A DNA stretch of 64,000 bases. It comes from Verrucomicrobiaceae bacterium. GTDB lineage: Bacteria; Verrucomicrobiota; Verrucomicrobiia; Verrucomicrobiales; Akkermansiaceae. Shown in pieces: positions 33,262 to 56,779 of this stretch. The stretch spans positions 1 to 64,000 of the forward strand of contig JAIXQH010000028.1 of NCBI GenBank assembly GCA_027484055.1. The letters run 5' to 3'. How positions within the stretch are numbered: the stretch's first letter is position 1; each line of letters begins with the position of its first letter. Below the pieces are notes generated by a model. It saw only the letters and a list, made by a program, of their open reading frames with translations. It was not told where the DNA came from and searched no databases. The position numbers were made by a program, and so were the translations under genes.

Positions 33262-34770
33262 TCAAATCGACTCCACGTCTGCCTGCGACATGGATCGGAT
33301 CACCGCCCGGCTCAAGTAGAGCAATGGCAGGCCACAAACCGCTGCCCGCCACCCAAGATCGAAGAAGTTACTCCGTGCAGACGCCGGTAGCCAATAGGCG
33401 ATTGCGCCGAGCAGCACGCTAAACAAGGCGAGCGGCAGTGCCGTTTTCCGGAGGTGAAACACTAAGAAGCCGAACAGGGGCAGCTTCAAGCGGCGGACCG
33501 TCACGGGAATCACCCAAAACCAACCGATGAGTACCGTCGGGATCATCGTGCCGATTGCCACGCCCAGCACTCCCATGGTCCTAGCGAGAATGATGCTGAG
33601 GATCAAGTTTGCCACCGCCTCGACCACGGAAACGTGGAGCAGACGTTTCTCTTCACCACACATCATCAGCACGCGCTTGGAACAACTATTCGTGAGTTGG
33701 GAACTGTAAATCGCGAGTAGGAGAACTTGGCCAATCCACCACGTTTCTGTCGGAACCTCATCCCCCGTTAACAGTCGGATCAAGGGCGCGAGATACACCA
33801 CTGACAACAAATAACAAGGAGTGACCAGCAGGAAGGTCAGGCGGGAACTCCGCAGCAAGAGGCTACGCAGACCTGATTCATCACCACGGGCATGCAGCGA
33901 AGCCGCCGCAGGCGAGATGACTTGTTGAAGCTGGATACTGAAAATACCGAGCATTTCTCCCATTTTATAGCCCGCCTGATAGATCGCGACTGATGCCACG
34001 CCGAGCGATAGCGAGATCACCAGTTGGTCGCTTTTCGCCAGGAGCATGTTGCTGAACGTGATCAAGTAGGCAGTGATCGAGAATCCCATCTGAGCACGGA
34101 CCGAACGCCACTCAAACCACTTTGGCGCGAAGGACACCTTTGGCAGTCGCTGCACCGCGAGCACGGCGGCGATGAAATTGGGTAAAATACTGGTCACCAC
34201 GCTCACTCCCATCAAGATCGCCATGTCCCAGTGCGCAGTGAGCCCCCAGTAGAGCAGTGCGAAGTTAAATACTGTCGTTAGCGTGCCCACCCAGTTGGCG
34301 AGATCCATGCGCTGCAAGCCACGTAAAATCTCAGGAAATACGCCAAGCGGGAACATCACTGCCAGACCTACGAAGAACACCGTATAAGCTCGCCCGAACT
34401 CGGCACGATCCGCTACCGCCACGCCCATCCGCACCATGAAGGGTTCGCGAATCGCTAAGAAAACCACGAGCAAGATGCTCGCCATGCCGATGAACGTCCA
34501 CAGAATGGTCGCCAGAAGTCGGCTCAAGCCCTCCATATCACCCGTCGCCGTTTTCTCCGCGACTGCCTTTTGTGCGGTGAATCCAAACCCGAAATCCAAG
34601 AGAATCCCGTAACCAAACAGAGACCATAATAAAGCCCAAAATCCAAACTGCTCGTGAGTGAACTCCTGGAACATGGTTCTGAAAAGGACCAAGCCAAGGA
34701 GCAAACGAATCACCACTCCTATGTAGGCACTTGCGGTGGTGTGCCAAAATCTACGTTGCCATTCTTCCAT
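33262..34770 (-). CDS. Polysaccharide flippase (Wzx/MATE-like)
   Basis: A 502-residue protein with 12-14 predicted helices, of the polysaccharide transporter/MOP superfamily. The N-terminus AYIGVVIRLLLGLVLFRTMF and the repeated two-bundle arrangement fit Wzx-type lipid-linked oligosaccharide flippases. It lies last in the leftward arm of the polysaccharide locus, after three glycosyltransferases. Confidence 0.85.
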   Translation of the reverse strand: MEEWQRRFWHTTASAYIGVVIRLLLGLVLFRTMFQEFTHEQFGFWALLWSLFGYGILLDFGFGFTAQKAVAEKTATGDMEGLSRLLATILWTFIGMASILLVVFLAIREPFMVRMGVAVADRAEFGRAYTVFFVGLAVMFPLGVFPEILRGLQRMDLANWVGTLTTVFNFALLYWGLTAHWDMAILMGVSVVTSILPNFIAAVLAVQRLPKVSFAPKWFEWRSVRAQMGFSITAYLITFSNMLLAKSDQLVISLSLGVASVAIYQAGYKMGEMLGIFSIQLQQVISPAAASLHARGDESGLRSLLLRSSRLTFLLVTPCYLLSVVYLAPLIRLLTGDEVPTETWWIGQVLLLAIYSSQLTNSCSKRVLMMCGEEKRLLHVSVVEAVANLILSIILARTMGVLGVAIGTMIPTVLIGWFWVIPVTVRRLKLPLFGFLVFHLRKTALPLALFSVLLGAIAYWLPASARSNFFDLGWRAAVCGLPLLYLSRAVIRSMSQADVESI

Positions 34771-34784
34771 TTTACGTGTTTCTA

Positions 34785-35933
34785 CTATTTGGCCGATTCG
34801 GCGAGTGTTTGTTGATAGATCGCCGTGGCCTCGCGGGCATGGTTAGACCAAGTGAAGCCCCCAGCCCAGCGAATGCCAGTGGCCTCTCGCTGGTTCTTTT
34901 CAATGGGATTCATGGTGGAGAGTTGAGTCATCGCCTCGGCGATTGAATCTTCGATCAAGCCATTGAAAAGGATACCAGAAGGCCCGGCGACTTCAGGTAA
35001 ACTGGTCGAGTTGGAACAGGCGATTCTCGTGCCGCATGCTTGAGCTTCTAGCAAGGGCAGGCCGAATCCTTCCATGAGAGACGGGAAAACCAATGCTTCC
35101 GCAGAAGCATACCAAAGTGGTAAATCATCATTCTCGACAAAGCCCTCCAAGCGGATGCGATCTTTGAACGGACTGGTCGCAACCGCATTTTCGATCACTT
35201 CCGAGCCATGCCACGGGGCACCGGGTAGGACAAGCAGGCCCGAGAACGCACCGGAAGCGGCGAGCTTCTCGAAAGCGCGAATCAAGCGCAGGTGATTCTT
35301 CGCCGGGTGTTCTAACCTCGCGACATAGAGGAAAAACGGCGCATCAAGTTGTTTGCGAAGTTTGAAATCTGCAAGCGCTGCGGATGATGGCGGACGGAAC
35401 ATCACATGGTCGATCCCATTGTAAATCACGCTCACCTTCTCACGCGGCACTTTCATGAAATGCACCACATCTTTTCCCGTGGTGTCACTCACCGCGATGA
35501 CTCGTTTGACGCGCCGAGCGATGAATGGCACAACGATGCGACCGAAAAATCCGCGGGCGAAATCATACTTCCCGCGCAGGATAAATGGCGCACAATCATG
35601 GATCGTCGCTACCTGTGGCACGATGGAATGGATCAACATGCGACGGTAGCTAGGAATATGTAATAGGTCGATTCCCAGTCGGTGGAGGAGTCCGTTTAGT
35701 TTCACTTGGTGCCAGAAAAGATTGGCAACTCCGCCAGCCATCGTCTCCGGAATGCTGACCCAGCGCTCGTCTCTCAACCAAGGAAACAGCGCGCGGTCAC
35801 TATCAAGTCCAGCGACAAATAGATCGATCTTCGAAGCTTGCTCCCGCACCAGAGCCTCGCTGAGCGAGATGACATAGCGGGCGACTCCTGAGCGACCGCC
35901 TTGAATCATGCCAGCGGAGAGAAGGACTTTCAC
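34785..35933 (-). CDS. Glycosyltransferase, GT4 family
   Basis: A 382-residue GT-B fold enzyme. The N-terminal glycine loop is QGGRSGVARYV, and the C-terminal donor site is SLMEGFGLPLLEAQACGTRI with the paired glutamates of retaining GT4 enzymes. The start is GTG at 35933, whose GTGA overlaps the stop of the upstream gene; a longer frame to 35954 lies within that gene. Adds one sugar to the repeat unit; the donor is unknown. Confidence 0.88.
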   Translation of the reverse strand: MKVLLSAGMIQGGRSGVARYVISLSEALVREQASKIDLFVAGLDSDRALFPWLRDERWVSIPETMAGGVANLFWHQVKLNGLLHRLGIDLLHIPSYRRMLIHSIVPQVATIHDCAPFILRGKYDFARGFFGRIVVPFIARRVKRVIAVSDTTGKDVVHFMKVPREKVSVIYNGIDHVMFRPPSSAALADFKLRKQLDAPFFLYVARLEHPAKNHLRLIRAFEKLAASGAFSGLLVLPGAPWHGSEVIENAVATSPFKDRIRLEGFVENDDLPLWYASAEALVFPSLMEGFGLPLLEAQACGTRIACSNSTSLPEVAGPSGILFNGLIEDSIAEAMTQLSTMNPIEKNQREATGIRWAGGFTWSNHAREATAIYQQTLAESAK

Positions 35934-37390
35934 GCTGGGACCTCCCCTTTCCATTCGGGTAAAATTTTATCCAGCCGCAACAAGCTGATGATCTCACGGA
36001 CTGAGGGGTTGGCGTCGGCTAGGAACATTTCGCCTCCTTTGGCCGCGACTATTTTCCAAGTTCGAATGAGACCACCGACCGCACGACTGTCGATGAAGCT
36101 GACATTTTTCAAGTCCACGACAAGCACCGAGATCTGGGGTTTATGCGAAATAGCCGTTTCTAACGTTAGCATCATTTCGTCGTGATAGAGAGCATCAAGC
36201 GCACGGCTGAATGACACCCAGACCATGCCGTCATCGAGGACTTTTTCATCACTGCCACTAGCATGATATTCTTCGATGAGCTGCAAGGCAGCAGCCTCGG
36301 TCTCCACGGTTTGATAGAGCGACTCCATCCGGACGGCGCGGATGGCGGTTTTAAATGAAAGTGATGGATTCACTACGACTAACAATTGGCCCGCAGTGCG
36401 GCAGCTACGCACCAAGGTCGCGAAGTGTCCCAATCCTGAGCTATCGATGAATGAAATTGCTGAAGCATCTAGGATCACGGGTGATAGAATGGAGTCCGGT
36501 AGCGGAGCGCCCGACATGTCTTTCAACTGTAGGTCGCCGACCCAGTGCAGACGAATCATCGGAATGCTTGGAACTTCCTCAAAACTTGGCAATTGCTTGG
36601 CCGACTGAGAAATCGAAATGCGATTCCGATAAGATTGATGTTGCTGCCATGAAGCCACACCGAGGAAAACCAAGTCTTTCCCGTAGCGCTTCACCAAGCG
36701 TGTGGGGCTGCTAGCCATCCTCCAAAACCACTCCATACCGGTTTTCTGCATCCACTTCGGGGCGCGTTTTTGTTTACCAGTGATGAAATCGAGACTGGCA
36801 CCTACACCGATACTGAGAGGGATGCCGCATTCTTTATGATGGGCGAAAATCCAACGCTCCTGCTTGGGACAGCCCAGGCAGACCAGCAATAACTTCGCGC
36901 CACTGGCCCGCATTTTCGCGCAGAGCGCATCGTTATCCCACTCGATCACTGCGCCGAAGGGCGGCGAGTCGACCCCGACCACTTTCAGTCCGGGGTAGCG
37001 TTGTTCTACGATGACTTTCGCCTCTTCTAGAGTCGCTAGATCACTTCCGAAAAAATAGACGGGATGTTGTTCTTTCCCGCAGATTTCGAGGAGTTTCGGA
37101 ACCATGTCTGATCCAGCAACCCGCTCACGAAGTGGGTAGCCAAACCATTTTGAAAGCCAGACCAGCGGCATCCCATCACAGACGACGCGATCTGCGAAAA
37201 AGACGATTTTTTTAAGATCCGGGTCTTCATATGCTTGGGTGGTGAAGTCCACATTCGCTGTCACGAGGTAGCGCGGGTCCGTTCTCTCCATCACGGAGGC
37301 GCAGTAAGTCAATGTTTCCTCAAGAGTGACATCGTGAAATGGCAGTCCTAGTAGGACGATCATAGGGGGTTCTGGTGGGATCGCATTCAT
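35930..37390 (-). CDS. WecG/TagA/CpsF glycosyltransferase fused to two STAS domains
   Basis: A 486-residue fusion. Residues about 10-250 are a GT26 enzyme (TANVDFTTQAYEDPDLKKI, CDGMPLVWLSKW, LGCPKQERWI), which adds an N-acetylmannosamine(-uronic) type sugar to a lipid-linked acceptor. Residues about 275-370 form a STAS domain with the phosphorylation motif FIDSSGLG (Ser317/318). Residues about 385-480 form a second STAS domain with FIDSRAVG (Ser435). STAS domains are anti-sigma-antagonist switches phosphorylated by RsbW-like kinases; one such kinase is encoded at 42128. Their attachment to a glycosyltransferase suggests direct control of the enzyme. Confidence 0.9.
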   Translation of the reverse strand: MNAIPPEPPMIVLLGLPFHDVTLEETLTYCASVMERTDPRYLVTANVDFTTQAYEDPDLKKIVFFADRVVCDGMPLVWLSKWFGYPLRERVAGSDMVPKLLEICGKEQHPVYFFGSDLATLEEAKVIVEQRYPGLKVVGVDSPPFGAVIEWDNDALCAKMRASGAKLLLVCLGCPKQERWIFAHHKECGIPLSIGVGASLDFITGKQKRAPKWMQKTGMEWFWRMASSPTRLVKRYGKDLVFLGVASWQQHQSYRNRISISQSAKQLPSFEEVPSIPMIRLHWVGDLQLKDMSGAPLPDSILSPVILDASAISFIDSSGLGHFATLVRSCRTAGQLLVVVNPSLSFKTAIRAVRMESLYQTVETEAAALQLIEEYHASGSDEKVLDDGMVWVSFSRALDALYHDEMMLTLETAISHKPQISVLVVDLKNVSFIDSRAVGGLIRTWKIVAAKGGEMFLADANPSVREIISLLRLDKILPEWKGEVPA

Positions 37391-38613
37391 TGGTTAGAGG
37401 AGGTGAGTGCATTCAATCGTTGGGCGAGCTGCTGGCCTAGAGCTTCCCAGGTGTAAATTTTTAAAATCTGAGAACGACCTGCCAGGCCTTGTCGTTTGCG
37501 AAGCGGAGAATCATTCACGTAGCGAAGGATAGCTGCCGCAAATTCGGCAGGTGCGTCAGCGAGAAGTAGATGCACATCGTGTTCCAGTTCCAGTCCTTGT
37601 GCGCCGAGGGTGGTGGATACGACAGGATTGCTCATGGCCAATCCTTCGGCGATTTTGAGGCGAGTCCCCCCGCCGATTCGCAGCGGGACCATTTGCATCC
37701 ATGCTTGTTGGTAGTAGGGACGAACATCCGGCACTTCACCGACGAAGTCCACCCCTGGAAGATTCGCGTAACCTTGGACGGTCGGCGTCGGATTTTTCCC
37801 AATAAGGATGAGTTTAAAGTCAGGGCACTGTTCGAGGACCAGAGGGTGGATCGTTTCAAAATACCATGCGAGTCCATCCGTATTCGGCACGTAGTCGAGA
37901 GCGCCACAGAACAGTGCGGTAGGAGTGGCTGTAGGGGTCGGCGGCCAAGCCTCGGCATCGAAGAAACCGACGTTCGCGCCGTTAGGTAGGACGAACACTC
38001 GGTCGCTTGTGCCCATTTTAGACGTGAGGAAGGTCTCATCATCCGGCCCGCAGACAACGGTTAGAGCGAGCTCGCGCCGCACTTCACGTTCGAGTCTTAC
38101 GATTTTAAAGAGGTTCTCATAGGCCATGAGCTTACCGAGTCGGCTTTGCTGCTTGGTGTTGAGGACTTCGGTTTGGAACAACCAGTCCACGCGGCTGCGA
38201 TCCATCACGCGGGCGGGATGGTCGGGAAAGATTTCTTTGATGTACGGCCAGAGCACGAGGTCACAGAAATTTATCACATCATATTCCTGGCCCGCGGTGA
38301 ACTGATACAAGGATGTTAGCACCTGCTCAGACCACCAATGCCTCACCGATACGGGTTGCAAGTGCCAGAGGCGATCTGTGAGAAAGGGCGGCCAAGGTGC
38401 GTGTTGAAATGGCTCGAAGTGGACGCGTTTACAAAACGCTTCGAAACGATGCAGGTGAGCGGCATCTTCTGGCTCGGACGACAAGCAGAAGAGATCCACT
38501 TCGAAGTGACGCCCAAGGGCTTCTGCCAGATGATAGACACGCTGATAGGTGCCTCTCATCAAGGGATATGGGACGTAAGGTAGAAAGATTAACAGACGTT
38601 TCATTCGGGTCAT
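37387..38613 (-). CDS. Glycosyltransferase, GT4-like
   Basis: A 408-residue GT-B enzyme. The N-terminus MKRLLIFLPYVPYPLMRGT and QRVYHLAEALGRHFEVDL, the donor-site segment PLRIGGGTRLKIAEGLAMSN and VSTTLGAQGLEL match the family often seen next to exosortase/EPS genes. ATG 38613 overlaps the upstream stop (ATGA). It overlaps the GT26-STAS gene start by 4 bases. Confidence 0.87.
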   Translation of the reverse strand: MTRMKRLLIFLPYVPYPLMRGTYQRVYHLAEALGRHFEVDLFCLSSEPEDAAHLHRFEAFCKRVHFEPFQHAPWPPFLTDRLWHLQPVSVRHWWSEQVLTSLYQFTAGQEYDVINFCDLVLWPYIKEIFPDHPARVMDRSRVDWLFQTEVLNTKQQSRLGKLMAYENLFKIVRLEREVRRELALTVVCGPDDETFLTSKMGTSDRVFVLPNGANVGFFDAEAWPPTPTATPTALFCGALDYVPNTDGLAWYFETIHPLVLEQCPDFKLILIGKNPTPTVQGYANLPGVDFVGEVPDVRPYYQQAWMQMVPLRIGGGTRLKIAEGLAMSNPVVSTTLGAQGLELEHDVHLLLADAPAEFAAAILRYVNDSPLRKRQGLAGRSQILKIYTWEALGQQLAQRLNALTSSNQ

Positions 38614-39710
38614 GCGTAGTAAGCCCACCACTTGGAATACACGGTCTCCCAAGGCCCTGGTTGGGTGGAGTCACCCGGCGGCGAAGGTAAGAAAGTCGCT
38701 GCCTCTGCCAGTCCGCCGGGTGTCAGCCCGAGCAAACAGGGTAGAGCACGCATCAGACCCGCACGGGGATAATCTCCTAGGGGACGAATATAGGCACCGC
38801 GTTTCAGTCGATCTCTCAGAGCAAGCACGAGATTTTTCACATACGAGCCTTGCCGTAGTAGCCGAGGGATCTTGTGGTAGGTGGCGAAGTTCGGGATGGG
38901 TCGGTTAAGCCGCTTTTCTTCTGCTGCGCGATAGAGGATGCCCCAGGCTTGGATCAGTGCTTGAGATTCCGCTTCGAGTTCCTGCCAAGTGGGACCAGTT
39001 GCGTAGGGATGGAATTTGAAGTTCACACCTTCAGCGTGCCATTGCCGGAGAAGTGGGATTCCAGATGGAAGATCACAGGTTAGAAGACGTTCAGCACGCT
39101 CACGGCACTTGGAGGAATAAAGACCATTGAGGCATAACCAACCGTCTCCGAGGGCGAGCTTGACCTTGGCGTGATTGCGAATGACGAATTTCAGGCCATC
39201 CGCCTGGCCCATCCGACAACGCGAGAAAAATAGGCCACTTCCGCGATTCCAGAGCAGTCGGGTCGCTTCTTCTGGCTCGATTTTCGAAAAATCCAAGTCA
39301 CCACGGAGCTGTTGTAAAAAGGATGCATCCCCCGCCACGACGACATGACCTGCGACGAGGTCTGCGAACATCATGGAACGACTTGGATCTCCGATGGATT
39401 CAGCGCGAAGGGATTTAATCTCGACGTCGATTCCCAATTCGATCGATTCCAAGCGCTCAATTTCACGGCACCAAGCCACTAAACTTGGGTCATCTGGGGA
39501 GTCGTCAAATAAGAAGTAGTCCAGGTCGTTAGAAAACTCTGGGCCGTGACTCCCCGCCATAACCCCACCCTCACCGCGACCATAGCCGCCGCCAAGAACG
39601 AGTGCTCCTCTGCAACCTTGCGCTTCAAATGAGGTCTTTACCTTAGAAAAATGACGCTCCAAGCGAGACTCAAGCTCGGGGTGACTGCCTTCGAAGTAAC
39701 GTCCTGTCAT
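38610..39710 (-). CDS. Nucleotidyltransferase-fold protein
   Basis: A 366-residue protein. Near residue 40 it reads LGGGYGRGEGG, followed by NDLDYFLF (about 61-68) and GIDVEIKSL (about 93-101). A glycine-rich turn, a D-x-D on the next strand, and a third Asp fit the polymerase-beta nucleotidyltransferase fold (MNT/Cid/DUF4111-like). The rest is helical. It may transfer a nucleotide to a sugar, lipid or protein in the polysaccharide pathway; the family assignment is by motif only. Confidence 0.62.
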   Translation of the reverse strand: MTGRYFEGSHPELESRLERHFSKVKTSFEAQGCRGALVLGGGYGRGEGGVMAGSHGPEFSNDLDYFLFDDSPDDPSLVAWCREIERLESIELGIDVEIKSLRAESIGDPSRSMMFADLVAGHVVVAGDASFLQQLRGDLDFSKIEPEEATRLLWNRGSGLFFSRCRMGQADGLKFVIRNHAKVKLALGDGWLCLNGLYSSKCRERAERLLTCDLPSGIPLLRQWHAEGVNFKFHPYATGPTWQELEAESQALIQAWGILYRAAEEKRLNRPIPNFATYHKIPRLLRQGSYVKNLVLALRDRLKRGAYIRPLGDYPRAGLMRALPCLLGLTPGGLAEAATFLPSPPGDSTQPGPWETVYSKWWAYYA

Positions 39711-39721
39711 CTGCTCCGGGG

Positions 39722-40042
39722 TTAGGCTTTTCTGGGTTCCAACTCGAAGATCCGATGAACCTGCATCAATTCAAGAATCGTCAGTACCTTGGTGCCTACA
39801 TTGGTGAGGCGGACCGGGCGTCGCTGTTCTGGCAATGAGTTATGGACATGCAAAAATGCACCAAGCCCTGAGCTGTCGAGAAATTCTAAACTCTCACAGT
39901 TCACTGCGACCGGGCCAGAGGATGAGGAGATGGCCAGCCCGGCTTCTTGCCGAAATTCCGGGGCATTGACTCGGTCTAAACTATCCACCAGCACGGTTAG
40001 TACTACGGTTCCGGTGCTTTCCATGGTTGATCGAACAATCAT
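39722..40042 (-). CDS. STAS-domain anti-sigma factor antagonist-like protein
   Basis: A 106-residue single STAS domain, the size of SpoIIAA/RsbV/SypA. The phosphorylation motif EFLDSSGLGAFL puts the target serine at Ser57 (D56-S57-S58-G59). It probably binds an RsbW-like kinase when unphosphorylated. It is first in the leftward arm of the polysaccharide locus; the matching kinase/phosphatase gene starts about 2.1 kb away in the rightward arm. Confidence 0.9.
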   Translation of the reverse strand: MIVRSTMESTGTVVLTVLVDSLDRVNAPEFRQEAGLAISSSSGPVAVNCESLEFLDSSGLGAFLHVHNSLPEQRRPVRLTNVGTKVLTILELMQVHRIFELEPRKA

Positions 40043-40257: not shown

Positions 40258-40974
40258 ATGAACGTTGACCCAGCAGAATACTGGAGCCAGATCGATAAAG
40301 ACGGAGAAATCGAACGCTGGAGCCGCAACGCACGACGCAAGATGGCGATCTGGCGACTGACGATTTACGCAGCTCGCGCCTTGAAGCGTGGGCTCGACCT
40401 GGTGGGTTCACTGGGCGCACTCTGTGCCTTTTCGCCTTTTTTTATTATCACCAGCCTACTGATCAAGCTGGAGGATCGTGGCCCGATCTTCTTTTGTCAG
40501 AACCGAGTCGGTGCTGCTGGCAGGCTGTTTCCGATGTGGAAGTTCCGCTCCATGGTGATCAATGCGGACCAGATCAAGGATCAACTGCTAGAGGCAAATC
40601 AGCATGGCGAGGCCGGAGTGACCTTTAAAATGAAGGATGACCCGCGGATCACGAAGGTCGGGAAATGGATCCGCAAGCTGTCGATCGATGAGCTACCGCA
40701 GTTTTACAACGTCCTGCGTGGCGAGATGTCGCTCGTTGGGCCCCGTCCCCCGCTGCCCAGGGAGGTGGCGACTTACAAGGCATCGCATCTCCGCCGCCTG
40801 CGGGTGAAGCCGGGGATCACTTGCCTTTGGCAAATTGGTGGACGGTCAGAGATTGATTTTGAGGGGCAAGTCCGGCTGGACTTGGAATATATCCGCTCAT
40901 CTAGTGCGTTTTTTGATTGTTCGATTCTGCTTAAAACTCTGCCAGCAGTGCTTTTTGGTAAAGGTGCCTATTAA
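40258..40974 (+). CDS. Undecaprenyl-phosphate sugar phosphotransferase (priming transferase)
   Basis: A 238-residue protein of the bacterial sugar transferase family (WbaP C-terminal/PglC type). One membrane helix (about 55-75) follows KRGLDLVGSLGAL; catalytic segments are PIFFCQNRVG, MWKFRSM, KLSIDELPQFYNVLRGEMSL, VGPRPPLP and KPGITCLWQI. It attaches the first sugar-phosphate to undecaprenyl phosphate and so starts each repeat unit. Confidence 0.93.
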   Translation: MNVDPAEYWSQIDKDGEIERWSRNARRKMAIWRLTIYAARALKRGLDLVGSLGALCAFSPFFIITSLLIKLEDRGPIFFCQNRVGAAGRLFPMWKFRSMVINADQIKDQLLEANQHGEAGVTFKMKDDPRITKVGKWIRKLSIDELPQFYNVLRGEMSLVGPRPPLPREVATYKASHLRRLRVKPGITCLWQIGGRSEIDFEGQVRLDLEYIRSSSAFFDCSILLKTLPAVLFGKGAY

Positions 40975-40994: not shown

Positions 40995-42131
40995 ATGCCT
41001 GCAGGAGTCCTTGAACTCGTATTACCCGATTGGTCTGCTTTAGATACGGTGCGCTCATCGTCCGTGCCATTTGCGCTCTGGACGATTGGCGACCAGTGCC
41101 TGCTGCATCACTGGCTGGATTACGCGGTGAATCAAGGTAGCACTGGCGTGATATTCTACGTAACAGACCGCCCGGACGCCGTTAAAAAAGTGCTAACTGA
41201 GTCGTCTCTCTGGCCGCTAACGATGGAAATGATCGTTCTGACAGCAGGCCAAGAAGCCCCTCCACAAGCGATTTCAGTGGAATGGCTGCATGGTGAAGAG
41301 GCCCCCGCCCCGCCGACGAATGGCTGGGAGCTGCTCGCACGGGCAGCCGATATCGAGAAGGTGTGGCTGGACCGTCTAGCAAATGATCCAGATTTCATGC
41401 TCATGAATGTCGGCTTTTCATGCCGAATCCATCCTGAAGCGGTGTTGAGCCCGCCCTATTTCATTGGCGATCATGTATTCATCGGCCCAGGTTGTGAAAT
41501 CGGCCCTTATGCGGTGGTGGGCCAGGGATCTGTCGTCTCAGGGGCGAATCGGGTGACCCATTCTCACCTCTCCGCGAATACTTTCCTCGGGCCAGTGACC
41601 GCCTTGGATCAGTGTCGGCTGGAAAGTGGTATTTTAATCAATTTAAAACACCGTGCGCGGCTCGACGAACTTGAGCCTCACCTACTCTCTAACCTTGAAA
41701 GCAGCTCGCTGGACGTGCCGATCAAAGATCGGCTCTATGCCTTGCTGCTCTACATCCAGCAGAGAAAGTCTGAGCATAGCCACGAGACCTTCAAGACCTT
41801 CGACGGGCGCATCCTCCCGGGCCGGGCAGATGCCGGCCTCTCCAATCGGACCGCCTGGCTCCCTCTGGTCTGGAGGGGAAAAATGCCACTTTACGGCATC
41901 CTGCCTAGATCCACCGCCCAGTTTGAGCGGCTAAGCGCAGAGTCACAGCGTGTGATCCGCCACGCGCCCATCGGCGTCTTTTCCTATGCCGATAGCCAAG
42001 GGTGCCATAGCCCCGAGCAACCTGAGGAGGCCGCCCATGCGGTCTATCAAGCCTCACTCCCTCCAGAGACTTTGCTAGGTGCGATTGCCCATTTCATCCG
42101 TCATTTCAACTCTGCTGATCTCCATCCATGA
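40995..42131 (+). CDS. Nucleotidyltransferase-like protein with left-handed beta-helix
   Basis: A 378-residue protein. The first 130 residues look like a degenerate sugar-nucleotide transferase domain. Residues about 140-200 contain hexapeptide repeats (IHPEAV, YFIGDHVFIGPGCEIGPYA) forming a left-handed beta helix as in GlmU. The C-terminal part has TFDGRILPGRADAGLSNRT, resembling GlmU-like enzymes that lack the acyltransferase site. Probably related to sugar nucleotide synthesis in the same locus; exact reaction unknown. Confidence 0.6.
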   Translation: MPAGVLELVLPDWSALDTVRSSSVPFALWTIGDQCLLHHWLDYAVNQGSTGVIFYVTDRPDAVKKVLTESSLWPLTMEMIVLTAGQEAPPQAISVEWLHGEEAPAPPTNGWELLARAADIEKVWLDRLANDPDFMLMNVGFSCRIHPEAVLSPPYFIGDHVFIGPGCEIGPYAVVGQGSVVSGANRVTHSHLSANTFLGPVTALDQCRLESGILINLKHRARLDELEPHLLSNLESSSLDVPIKDRLYALLLYIQQRKSEHSHETFKTFDGRILPGRADAGLSNRTAWLPLVWRGKMPLYGILPRSTAQFERLSAESQRVIRHAPIGVFSYADSQGCHSPEQPEEAAHAVYQASLPPETLLGAIAHFIRHFNSADLHP

Positions 42132-43204
42132 GCTACCATGAAACACTAACGCCACCGATAGGGGTGGTCCGGTACACCATTCCCGCGGATACATCCTTGG
42201 TAAGCACCTTGCGAAAGCGCTTCATCGACAGCATTTCCAACGGCGAACTCAATGACTCGGATCTCGCTCAGTGGACCTTAGTTTTCAGCGAGCTGGTGTT
42301 TAATGCCATCTTCCATGGGGCCAAGAACAACCCGGATCATTCGATCAATGTCGAGTGGAGCATCACGCAGAACTCTATCATCCTAGGTGCCTTGGATCCT
42401 GGCCAAGGCCCAGCGGATGAGGCTCTAAAATCCCCTTCCCTTCCCTCAGACCCGACTGCGGAGTCAGGCCGGGGGCTCTTTATTCTCCACGATTTTGCGG
42501 ACGAGTTGCGCCACTCACGCGGGACGCATGGGTTCTTTCTAGAGGTCGTGAAATACTACCCAAGTCAAGGACTCCCGCTGCCGGGAAATCCTGAAATCGA
42601 CAGCGTGATCGATGAACTTTCCTCCTGCTACGAAAGTCTATCGGTATTCCACCGGCTGACAGAGAATCTAATTGAAAGCGGAAATCTCCGCGACTTCATC
42701 GGCAGTTCGCTTGATGAATTCCTCTCACTGCATCCGCTCGACACCATCTTTTTCCTCGGCTCCAGTACCTTGCCCGAGAGGGTCCGTGAGGCGCTCAACA
42801 AGGCGAACTGGTTCCTCGACCAAGAAGATGCCGATCCCACGCTGAGAACTCTTGGCACACTGACGCGAGAGACGGTGTGGGAAAACTTCGAGGATTTGAC
42901 CCGCCAAAACATCACTTTCAAATCCCTCAGCTCCGTCGGCGCTGGTTGCGTCTTCCCGATCGTGGCCGGTGGCATTCACTTCGGTGCGCTGATCGCCCTG
43001 AGAAAACACAGCATCTCAAGCGTCCAGCGGCGCTCACTCGGCACCCTGCGGACGCTCGCCGATCTATGCGGTATCGCCTGCGCGAACACTCACCTCTCCA
43101 ACATCCGGGACGAATCCCAAAAAGACCTCCGCGAACTCGAAATCGCAGTGGATATCCAAAAGGCTCTCTTGCCCATTATCCCACCTCCCAAGTCGGATCG
43201 CTAG
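42128..43204 (+). CDS. RsbW-like kinase + GAF protein, N-terminal part of an interrupted gene
   Basis: A 358-residue product ending at TAG 43202-43204. Residues 1-145 are an anti-sigma-type GHKL kinase: N-box FSELVFNAIFHGAKNN, G1 LDPGQGPADEA, G2 ESGRGLFIL. Residues about 155-330 fit a GAF domain. It ends in LRELEIAVDIQKALLPIIPP, the normal linker leading into a RsbU/SpoIIE phosphatase, whose remainder continues in the same frame after the stop. Start overlaps the previous gene by 4 bases. Confidence 0.85.
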   Translation: MSYHETLTPPIGVVRYTIPADTSLVSTLRKRFIDSISNGELNDSDLAQWTLVFSELVFNAIFHGAKNNPDHSINVEWSITQNSIILGALDPGQGPADEALKSPSLPSDPTAESGRGLFILHDFADELRHSRGTHGFFLEVVKYYPSQGLPLPGNPEIDSVIDELSSCYESLSVFHRLTENLIESGNLRDFIGSSLDEFLSLHPLDTIFFLGSSTLPERVREALNKANWFLDQEDADPTLRTLGTLTRETVWENFEDLTRQNITFKSLSSVGAGCVFPIVAGGIHFGALIALRKHSISSVQRRSLGTLRTLADLCGIACANTHLSNIRDESQKDLRELEIAVDIQKALLPIIPPPKSDR

Positions 43205-43846
43205 CTAGTCGCGATTTACCAAGAAAGCTCGCTGACGATCGCAGGAGACTACGCCATCGCCCGCAAGGACTCAGATGGAAATCTCGTGGTGGCCATGATC
43301 GATGTGATGGGCAAGGGCGTCTCTGCAGCCTTACTCGCAAGCATCTTTCGCACGGCCTTTGAAATGTCGCTGAACATCCCGACGTCTTGCCAAATTCTAG
43401 ACACGATCAACAAGACACTCTGCAGCCAACTGGGGGATTTGAGCATGTTCATCACCTGCGCCATTGCCCGCATATCAGCTGACGGGAAATCCATCGATCA
43501 CTCCAGCGCGGGCCATTGCCCGACGTTTTTCTATCAAACGGATGGCACACGCCTTTTTCTCCATCCATCCGGCCCGCCGTTAGGCATTCTGCCACAAGCC
43601 AGCTACTCGGGGGATCAAGCAGTGCTCAGCGGCGGTGAACGCCTACTCTTCATCACCGATGGCTGCTACGAGTGGGACCGTAGTGACGAAGACTTCGGCT
43701 GGCATCGTTTCGTTGAACTCATGGATGAAAATCGCACCTCGACGCCAGAGCAGCTCTGGGCGCAAGTGCGTGAGCGCATCCGCAGCGAATATGGTAATAC
43801 GCTCGAAGACGACTGCACCCTCATCACCCTCGATATCCTTTCATGA
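43205..43846 (+). pseudogene. PP2C (SpoIIE/RsbU) phosphatase domain, after an in-frame TAG
   Basis: The frame continues directly from 43205 with LVAIYQESSLTIAGDYAIAR, then the metal-binding GDY and MIDVMGKGVSAALLAS, AGHCPTFFY and the final EDDCTLITLDIL, a complete SpoIIE-type phosphatase domain. Joined to the part before it, the protein would be 572 codons long with one amber codon. It could be a point mutation, a sequence error, stop readthrough, or separate translation from ATG 43286 (which would lack the first metal ligand). The surrounding CTAGCTAG is palindromic. Confidence 0.75.
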
Positions 43847-44217
43847 AACGTATCCTTGTCGCCGAAGATGATTTCGTCATCTCCAAGCTTTATCAAATCC
43901 ACTTCCAGCGGAACAATCTGCATGGCAGCTTCTTCACAACGGGAGCAGGGGTCATCGAAAGCGCGAAACATGCTCGCCCCGACCTCGTCATCCTCGACTT
44001 CGAACTACCAGATTTGAATGGTCCGGACGTCATGCGAGCACTTCACCAGATCCCAGGCTGTGAGGACTTGCCAGTGATTTTCGTGACTGGCCGAGCCACG
44101 CCGGAGGTGGTCGAAAATCTGCGGAAAGAAGGAGCCCGCGAAGTCTTCGGCAAGCCGTTTTCCCCGCTCCAACTCATCCACCTGATTGGCAAACTCACCG
44201 AGTCGCCTGCACCATGA
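43843..44217 (+). CDS. Single-domain response regulator
   Basis: A 124-residue receiver domain with acidic pocket E8, D9, D10, phospho-acceptor D52 (LVILDFELPDLNG), T82 and K104 (FGKPFSP). There is no output domain. Start overlaps the phosphatase stop (ATGA). Next to the kinase/phosphatase it probably modulates the partner switch; in Vibrio fischeri SypE the same three modules are in one chain. Confidence 0.9.
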   Translation: MKRILVAEDDFVISKLYQIHFQRNNLHGSFFTTGAGVIESAKHARPDLVILDFELPDLNGPDVMRALHQIPGCEDLPVIFVTGRATPEVVENLRKEGAREVFGKPFSPLQLIHLIGKLTESPAP

Positions 44218-56138: not shown

Positions 56139-56165
56139 AAGGAGTGGGGACACTCCTGTCCCCAC
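56139..56165 (+). repeat. REP hairpin, copy 1
   Basis: AAGGAGTGGGGACACTCC then TGTCCCCAC. GGAG is followed by a palindrome GTGGGGACA/TGTCCCCAC, the structure of REP sequences recognised by REP-associated transposases. It starts one base after the ffh stop. Confidence 0.75.
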
Positions 56166-56179
56166 AACCCCAGCAACCC

Positions 56180-56779
56180 ATGCCCGAGTTCTACAATCCC
56201 ACCGGCGAAACTCAAAAGCACGGCGTCAAACTCCCTCACTGGCAACAAGACGAAGTCCACCAGTTCGTCACCTTCCGCCTTGGCGACTCCATGCCTTCCT
56301 CAAAACTCCGCCTGTGGAAACAAGAACGAGAAGTATGGATATCACACCATCCCGAGCCATGGTCCCTCGAGGCCGAACAGGAATATCACCGTTTGTTCAC
56401 CTGGAAACTAGAGAACTGGTTGGATGAAGGATATGGCTCCTGCATTTTCACCGATCCGACGAAACGTGAAGTCCTAACTACCACCCTAATGCACGACCAT
56501 GGAACCAAGGCGAAATTTCATGCTTGGGTCATCATGCCAAACCACGTTCACCTCCTCTTTACACCTCTCGCCCCATTGGAAAAACTCATGCAAAGCTGGA
56601 AAGGCATTTCATCTCGCCGCATAGGTCTCGGGCGTATCTGGCAGAAAAACTACCGCGACACCCTGATCCGAGACACCAGCCATTTTGCAAATGCCGTGCG
56701 CTACATCCGCCGGAACCCAGCAAAATTACCCAACGGAACCTTCACCCTATGGCAGAGCGAGAGGACAAAAGCAATTTAA
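56180..56779 (+). CDS. REP-associated tyrosine transposase (Y1, IS200-like)
   Basis: A 199-residue HUH transposase. The metal-binding HUH motif is in VIMPNHVHLLF (about residues 117-127) and the nucleophile Tyr in IWQKNYRDTLIRD (about 155). YIRRNPAKLPNG closes the domain as in other RAYTs. ATG 56180 (MPEFYNPTGETQKHGVKLPH) is chosen over an in-frame ATG at 56144 that lies in the REP. RAYTs are domesticated single-copy relatives of IS200 that act on REP hairpins; three matching REP units are in this window. Confidence 0.88.
   Translation: MPEFYNPTGETQKHGVKLPHWQQDEVHQFVTFRLGDSMPSSKLRLWKQEREVWISHHPEPWSLEAEQEYHRLFTWKLENWLDEGYGSCIFTDPTKREVLTTTLMHDHGTKAKFHAWVIMPNHVHLLFTPLAPLEKLMQSWKGISSRRIGLGRIWQKNYRDTLIRDTSHFANAVRYIRRNPAKLPNGTFTLWQSERTKAI

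Follow-up and report, generated by a model that had tools for sequence, protein, structure and literature searches.

Domain architecture of the fusion enzyme

The window analysed here, 64,000 nucleotides of contig JAIXQH010000028.1 from a Verrucomicrobiaceae bacterium, holds a polysaccharide gene cluster in which a glycosyltransferase of the WecG/TagA/CpsF family (GT26) is joined in one open reading frame (ORF) to two STAS domains. The fusion begins with ATG and encodes 486 amino acids (aa), laid out as follows:

35930-37390, minus strand: GT26-STAS-STAS fusion, recognised by Pfam, AlphaFold, structure comparison and alignments
Residues ~10-236: GT26 part
Residues 229-255: long helix
Residues 256-278: weak linker
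Residues ~279-377: first STAS domain (STAS1), with S317
Residues ~378-486: second STAS domain (STAS2), with S435

Pfam searches matched residues 66-236 to Glyco_tran_WecG (PF03808) with 198 bits against a curated cut-off of 27.4 (E 1.1e-58), and the STAS family to two stretches C-terminal to the GT26 part (whole-protein E 1.7e-22); STAS_2 matched as well (E 1.3e-14). An initial annotation of this DNA had described a GT26 enzyme with two STAS domains, and both Pfam and the orthologues bear this out, as the sequence and alignments do for the two serines that it numbered, which lie in FIDSSGLG (D316/S317, STAS1) and FIDSRAVG (D434/S435, STAS2). We rejected a chance or reading-frame artefact, since orthologues at 56-67% identity retain both kinds of domain and the whole architecture.

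The AlphaFold model, built from 56 sequences, comprised a TagA-like enzyme and two STAS domains (mean predicted local distance difference test score 91.5; predicted template modelling score, pTM, 0.89), with the least confident part at about residues 261-270. Comparison with VIA-align matched residues 9-205 to the TagA/TarA structure 5wfg (Z 28.9). STAS2 (residues 379-486) matched TM1442 (Z 17.1), SpoIIAA in its complex with SpoIIAB (1thn, Z 16.4) and RsbV in its complex with RsbW (6m36, Z 16.4), SulP STAS domains scoring somewhat lower (best Z 14.7); STAS1 (residues 265-379) matched the SulP STAS domain 4dgf (Z 12.4). S317 begins a helix at 317-332 and S435 one at 435-450, which we take to be the position of the SpoIIAA phosphosite. 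The modelled fold and the Ser following Asp at a helix start thus mark both residues as candidate phosphosites of the SpoIIAA/RsbV type. In a search for viral relatives by fold, none reached an E value of 0.001.

The catalytic part appears to be intact. T44, D72, R90, R224 and R231 were invariant in an alignment of 56 dual-STAS fusions and, in a profile alignment, corresponded to T37, D65, R83, R214 and R221 of TagA. Family score, TagA-like fold and these residues together point to membership of GT26, and the enzyme is predicted to transfer a sugar to a lipid-linked acceptor. In the available portions of the TagA study, D65 is the proposed base, a C-terminal appendage bearing R214 and R221 closes onto the active site at membrane contact, and that contact converts an inactive dimer to an active monomer (PMC6493773). 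The solved TagA is 244 aa long and ends near its appendage, whereas the fusion continues into two STAS domains; in the model, this pair is joined right behind the appendage-equivalent segment via helix 229-255 and the short weak linker. The appendage region could therefore be the place where a regulator gates catalysis.

Gene content of the locus

The locus is a Wzx-type polysaccharide cluster with a flippase-like protein, several glycosyltransferases of families GT4 and GT2, a priming transferase and a hexapeptide protein. Its genes form two divergent arms, between which lies the gene for a stand-alone STAS protein:

39722-40042, minus strand: stand-alone STAS protein of 106 aa whose FLDSSGLG motif has S57 in the phosphosite position; the gene immediately precedes 38610-39710
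38610-39710, minus strand: conserved protein of 366 aa, no Pfam or NCBIfam match
37387-38652, minus strand: GT4 glycosyltransferase, sharing 4 bases with the beginning of the fusion gene
34785-35954, minus strand: GT4 glycosyltransferase, next same-strand gene after the fusion
33262-34770, minus strand: Wzx-like flippase (Polysacc_synt_3; NCBIfam matches below cut-off)
40258-40974, plus strand: priming polyprenyl glycosylphosphotransferase (Bac_transf)
40995-42131, plus strand: hexapeptide-repeat protein
42128-43204, plus strand: RsbW/SpoIIAB-type kinase domain (HATPase_c_2, Pfam) and GAF-like middle region, ending at an in-frame TAG
43205-43846, plus strand: SpoIIE/RsbU-type phosphatase (Pfam) in the frame of the kinase; the listed ORF runs from GTG 43286, past the GDY motif
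43843-44217, plus strand: single-domain response regulator (receiver domain, REC; Pfam), 124 aa
44214-45359, plus strand: type I phosphodiesterase-like protein (Pfam), a recurrent member of the cassette

In order of transcription, the minus arm thus reads free STAS, 366-aa protein, GT4, fusion, GT4 and flippase, and the plus arm reads priming transferase, hexapeptide protein, kinase/phosphatase, REC and phosphodiesterase-like protein, followed by more glycosyltransferases. The free STAS gene was absent from the initial annotation. Its DSSG was invariant in an alignment of seven sequences, and it is as good a potential substrate for the kinase as are the fused domains. A scan of 95 sources found relatives of the 366-aa protein in 41, which include repeats of one record.

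In Rubritalea marina DSM 17716, the cassette's hexapeptide-repeat protein is itself fused in frame to a STAS domain (L095:7495-9105, minus strand; STAS at 439-534, E 4.6e-14) and represents a second STAS-bearing protein of the pathway, so several pathway enzymes may be wired to one kinase. The genome of the window has five STAS domains, three of them in the polysaccharide locus. Separate proteins of 187-211 aa that share a STAS motif, GMDSTFMG, occur in three genomes of the genus (G000:C25:31792-32070, that is L151; L152; L153), outside the polysaccharide locus. Farther along the window, an ORF at 56144-56779 (plus strand) matches an IS200-like transposase (Y1_Tnp, E 2.5e-6) and overlaps the beginning of the following ORF, which resembles an IPP-transferase gene.

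Conservation of the putative phosphosites

The fusion is not unique, a possibility we rejected upon finding 56 non-identical dual-STAS versions and 21 with a single STAS domain. The alignment of the former, i.e., the window's fusion with 55 further ones that are 27-67% identical to it, took in every non-identical dual fusion with a closed ORF except L027/L041 and L030/L046, which were omitted beside their close relatives L026 and L031 and which have both serines in a separate alignment. Results showed that D316 and S317 were the only invariant residues of the STAS region (56/56), followed by D434 (54/56) and S435 (51/56; the others have Thr in two cases, Cys in two and Asn in one). Among single-STAS fusions, 14 of the 21 retained the Ser.

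For comparison, we hand-picked 20 control STAS stretches from 52 matches, consisting of long frames and three short proteins and taking in none of the remaining small STAS proteins of the control genomes, which are likely antagonists themselves. Nineteen could be aligned, and Ser stood at the phosphosite in none of the 16 long frames (536-688 aa, presumed from their length to be SulP transporters) and in all three short proteins, which are of one kind. Since none of the long-frame domains has it, the STAS fold does not itself demand a Ser at this position.

The kinase/phosphatase and its in-frame stop codon

The initial annotation had placed an RsbW-type kinase and an RsbU-type phosphatase in this locus. 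Pfam found both; the kinase ORF (42128-43204) and the phosphatase ORF (43286-43846) lie in a single reading frame cut by one TAG (43202-43204), which the initial annotation had overlooked. In the compared loci that encode both kinase and phosphatase, the two share one frame, except in L093 and, through the TAG, in the window. Six relatives whose genes were read, L029 among them, had the frame uninterrupted. Seven relatives were entered in the codon comparison, from which L029 was excluded because another frame was matched, and the remaining six all had TGG at the position of the TAG. The TAG may be a nonsense mutation, a strain variation or a sequencing error. The ORF that restarts at GTG 43286 excludes the GDY motif (G373-D374 of L028), the G-D of which was invariant in 12 aligned relatives, so that the phosphatase may be inactive in the window's genome unless the TAG is a sequencing error.

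The same 12 relatives kept kinase residues E55, N59, D90 and G114-R115-G116 and phosphatase residues D374, D392, D511 and D561-D562 without exception. The window's kinase contains ELVFNAIFHGA, DPGQG and GRG, presumably the N, G1 and G2 boxes of a HATPase_c_2 domain, and it is the only strong match to this family in the genome (59 bits; the next reaches 34 bits). Its best NCBIfam match was SpoIIAB (TIGR01925), at 36 bits against an equivalog cut-off of 135, with RsbW models weaker still; we therefore consider the protein RsbW-like and not an orthologue. The middle region is called GAF-like after a weak GAF match in L084. Considering that the predicted structure of the whole kinase/phosphatase had a pTM of 0.47, no domain arrangement is claimed for it.

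Association of the kinase/phosphatase with the fusion

The window belongs to an orthologue group of 13 loci, the named relatives in which are Akkermansiaceae and Verrucomicrobiaceae metagenome genomes. A core spanning both arms (free STAS, 366-aa protein and fusion; priming transferase, hexapeptide protein, kinase/phosphatase, REC and phosphodiesterase) recurred in seven other loci of the group (L028, L029, L039, L041, L042, L043 and L045), which are those whose contigs extend to the kinase. The kinase was thus present in 8 of the 13, the contigs of the other five ending short of its expected place, and a free STAS gene lay near the fusion in 11. All eight loci checked for the flanking GT4 genes have them (L026's in two pieces).

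To these were added relatives from a wider collection, the best 80 of 571 confirmed loci, from which prevalence is consequently not inferred. After seven loci repeating named records were removed (L024, L026, L027, L030, L031, L033 and L037), the tally held 88 loci, 80 of them with at least one STAS domain. As controls we used 20 loci of STAS-less GT26 genes from the window's and related genomes, mostly with ~10 kb on each side, and found no RsbW domain, SpoIIE phosphatase or STAS domain near any of them. At least one switch part lay near the fusion in 27/80 loci versus 0/20 controls (p 8e-4), and an RsbW domain in 15/80 versus 0/20 (p 0.026). Outside the orthologue group, 16/67 loci had some switch part nearby (versus 0/20, p 0.009). 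The RsbW and phosphatase profiles applied to the controls had been trained on fusion loci; a Pfam search, covering the genomes of 8 control stretches, found no HATPase_c_2 in those stretches.

The association was also evident at the genome level. Among 288 genomes of the phylum, 22 had the fusion, 16 the kinase/phosphatase and 7 both (Fisher p 4e-5, not corrected for relatedness and inflated by it, since the seven genomes fall in five genera of one class). In all seven, the two genes were on one contig within ~31 kb. A fusion was counted here when a match reached query residue 345 or beyond (22 of 36 matched genomes), a criterion that may omit short or divergent fusions, and the kinase search scored at most four candidates per genome; a deeper search was run on 55 of the genomes. 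These were the 15 fusion genomes without a kinase/phosphatase and 40 genomes without a listed fusion, and neither set yielded a kinase/phosphatase of the window's type at E 1e-60, in a search that would miss two-gene versions such as L093.

We also examined 45 dual-fusion genomes outside the orthologue group, chosen as the closest by sequence and not as a random sample; three of them (G351, G358 and G372) had contributed rows to the search profile. A complete kinase-phosphatase was present in 30 and a partial one in six. Thirteen of the 36 had it on the same contig as, and within 23 kb of, a fusion (12) or a second, 505-aa GT26 frame with or without STAS (G378), and the remaining 23 had it on another contig of a draft genome. 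In a Chloroflexota locus (L093:1409-7920), fusion, free STAS, phosphatase, a separate kinase and REC all lie within ~6.5 kb.

A candidate partner switch with an enzyme as its target

These results suggest an enzyme, and not gene expression, as the direct target of a known signalling circuit. Our favoured explanation, towards which we lean by a little, is a post-translational partner switch in which the kinase/phosphatase sets the phosphorylation of the fused STAS domains and so controls GT26 in polysaccharide assembly. Phosphorylation of the enzyme itself is likely. The kinase/phosphatase (RsbW-like HATPase, GAF-like region and SpoIIE phosphatase), with the neighbouring receiver protein probably directing it, would set how far S57 of the free STAS protein and S317 and S435 of the fused domains are phosphorylated. 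Unphosphorylated STAS would dock on the HATPase domain of the kinase and be freed by phosphorylation, and either docking or phosphorylation would alter the enzyme's ability to add sugar to its lipid-linked acceptor, since the STAS pair directly follows the segment that in TagA folds at the membrane. Control through this appendage is a tentative and somewhat doubtful part of the proposal. By analogy with SypA/SypE (see below), unphosphorylated STAS would favour polysaccharide here; the opposite sign, in which binding by the kinase holds the enzyme off, is equally possible. That phosphorylation of the serines of both STAS domains toggles an early lipid-linked step within the GT26 enzyme, giving partner switching an enzymatic output, we regard as an even bet.

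Several observations weigh against this explanation. The TAG cuts the kinase off from the phosphatase in the genome of the window itself. Outside the orthologue group, the RsbW domain lay within 10 kb in 7/67 loci, which is not significant (p 0.15), and the 15 fusion genomes that remain after the seven with both genes had, in the deeper search, no kinase/phosphatase of the window's type; other kinase architectures may serve there, or the switch may have disappeared or never existed. The Ser is gone in 7 of the 21 single-STAS fusions (three Acidobacteriota, one Anaerolineae and three others). When we compared them, absence of Ser435 did not go with absence of the kinase: of the five dual fusions without Ser435, three (L056, L068 and L094) come from genomes with a complete kinase/phosphatase and two (L107 and L113) from genomes in which the kinase/phosphatase profile had no match, and L057 and L083 have both serines but likewise no such match. 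Finally, in L032 (L032:9345-10917) and L055 the tail of the GT26 enzyme has no recognisable STAS domain, an apparent loss or degeneration, yet a free STAS gene stands immediately upstream; L055 also retains part of a kinase. The initial annotation had suggested that phosphorylation directly controls sugar addition, and the reality of the fusion, the near-invariant serines and the association across genomes speak for this suggestion, whereas the absence of that association from some lineages does not.

The 15 fusion genomes without a window-type kinase, the missing Ser in a third of single-STAS fusions, the indifference of Ser435 to the presence of the kinase and the match of STAS1 to a SulP domain (Z 12.4) are what would be expected if the STAS domains were structural or ligand-binding appendages, as in SulP and MlaB, devoid of phospho-signalling, and the kinase cassette a passenger of polysaccharide loci. 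We give this very little credence, considering that the Ser is near-invariant in dual fusions, that no switch part lay near the 20 STAS-less GT26 genes of the same order and that the genes are associated at the genome level (with the caveat on relatedness given above). It is unlikely, to a lesser degree, that the free STAS protein is the sole phosphorylated switch and the fused domains an unphosphorylated docking platform for the kinase/phosphatase or the free STAS protein. The free STAS gene near 11 of the 13 fusions of the orthologue group, its retention in L032 and L055 beside an enzyme tail without recognisable STAS, and the example of SypA, a free STAS protein in the portions of PMC4517449 available, would all suit a dock. 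However, conservation of S317 (56/56) and Ser435 (51/56) would be unexpected in a passive one, because the long-frame control domains have no Ser.

The joint presence of a free STAS protein, a STAS-fused protein, a kinase and a phosphatase could alternatively indicate a stressosome-like scaffold of GT26-STAS and free STAS, in which the enzyme domain is not controlled and instead reports substrate or flux to the kinase. The order of domains resembles that of RsbR, with an N-terminal sensor followed by a C-terminal STAS domain, and the fold matched 7b0u (Z 13.0) and RsbS (6jhk, Z 13.5). Nevertheless, matches to SpoIIAA and RsbV were stronger (Z 16-17), the best NCBIfam match of the kinase, below cut-off, was to SpoIIAB, the kinase is in the frame of the phosphatase, and the catalytic residues of the enzyme are invariant; we therefore think such a scaffold improbable. 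More improbable still is a kinase that works as an ordinary anti-sigma factor, with the fused STAS domains serving as anti-sigma antagonists that link polysaccharide synthesis to transcription. HATPase_c_2 and STAS are the classical families of anti-sigma factor and antagonist, and the window's genome has six weaker sigma-70-type matches, but no SigB/F/G-type sigma factor exceeded the TIGR02980 cut-off in any of five genomes and none was found among the cluster genes that received family matches. A classical sigma-factor circuit is thus weakened as an explanation, and the partner switch acting on the enzyme remains the one we favour.

Comparison with known systems

Partner switching is best known for the control of sigma factors. 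The SpoIIAA/SpoIIAB and RsbV/RsbW pairs resemble the window's system in STAS fold, in a DSxG-like phosphosite and in a HATPase_c_2 kinase with N and G boxes, and differ in their target, which is a sigma factor and here would be an enzyme. RsbR likewise places another domain before a C-terminal STAS domain, but it has no N-terminal enzyme and works with a different type of kinase; the likeness of such stressosome proteins to the fusion lies in the fold of the STAS domains and in domain order. TagA/TarA and WecG resemble the fusion in fold (Z 28.9 for TagA), and the equivalents of catalytic T37 and D65 and of R214 and R221 of the appendage are invariant in the fusions; no STAS domain follows the appendage of the solved TagA, while two follow that of the window's enzyme.

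A search of the open-access literature found no paper on a fusion of WecG/TagA/CpsF (GT26) with STAS. The initial annotation had known of no described mechanism of this kind, which holds for GT26 and needs amending in view of two precedents, SypA/SypE and all4160. The latter, a glycosyltransferase of Anabaena PCC 7120, is needed for the heterocyst envelope polysaccharide (PMC8256260, PMC4390870, in the parts available) and, compared by description, likewise joins a STAS domain to a glycosyltransferase with a role in polysaccharide synthesis; its STAS domain is N-terminal, whereas those of the window's fusion are C-terminal. The parts are thus known, and a phosphosite-bearing STAS domain wired onto GT26 is undescribed as far as these searches show.

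The closest parallel is the symbiosis polysaccharide system of Vibrio fischeri. As described in the available portions of PMC4517449 and PMC10120452, SypE (kinase, REC and phosphatase) phosphorylates the STAS protein SypA at S56, and the two control polysaccharide through this phosphorylation, below the level of transcription. Both systems have a STAS protein with a known (SypA) or candidate phosphoserine, a known or probable response-regulator input and a polysaccharide locus, and both have kinase and phosphatase on one chain together with a free STAS protein, the window's chain being cut by the TAG. In SypE, the REC domain stands between kinase and phosphatase; in the window, REC is a separate gene of 124 aa and a GAF-like region takes the middle place. 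SypA is a free STAS protein and, with HmpV, is described in the available text as having a non-canonical output and an unknown downstream target (PMC10120452), whereas the window's system also fuses STAS to a glycosyltransferase. The fusion and the matching kinase/phosphatase of this lineage point to a class of target, make the question testable with purified parts and, if our explanation is true, would suggest that free STAS proteins like SypA bind a glycosyltransferase of their own locus.

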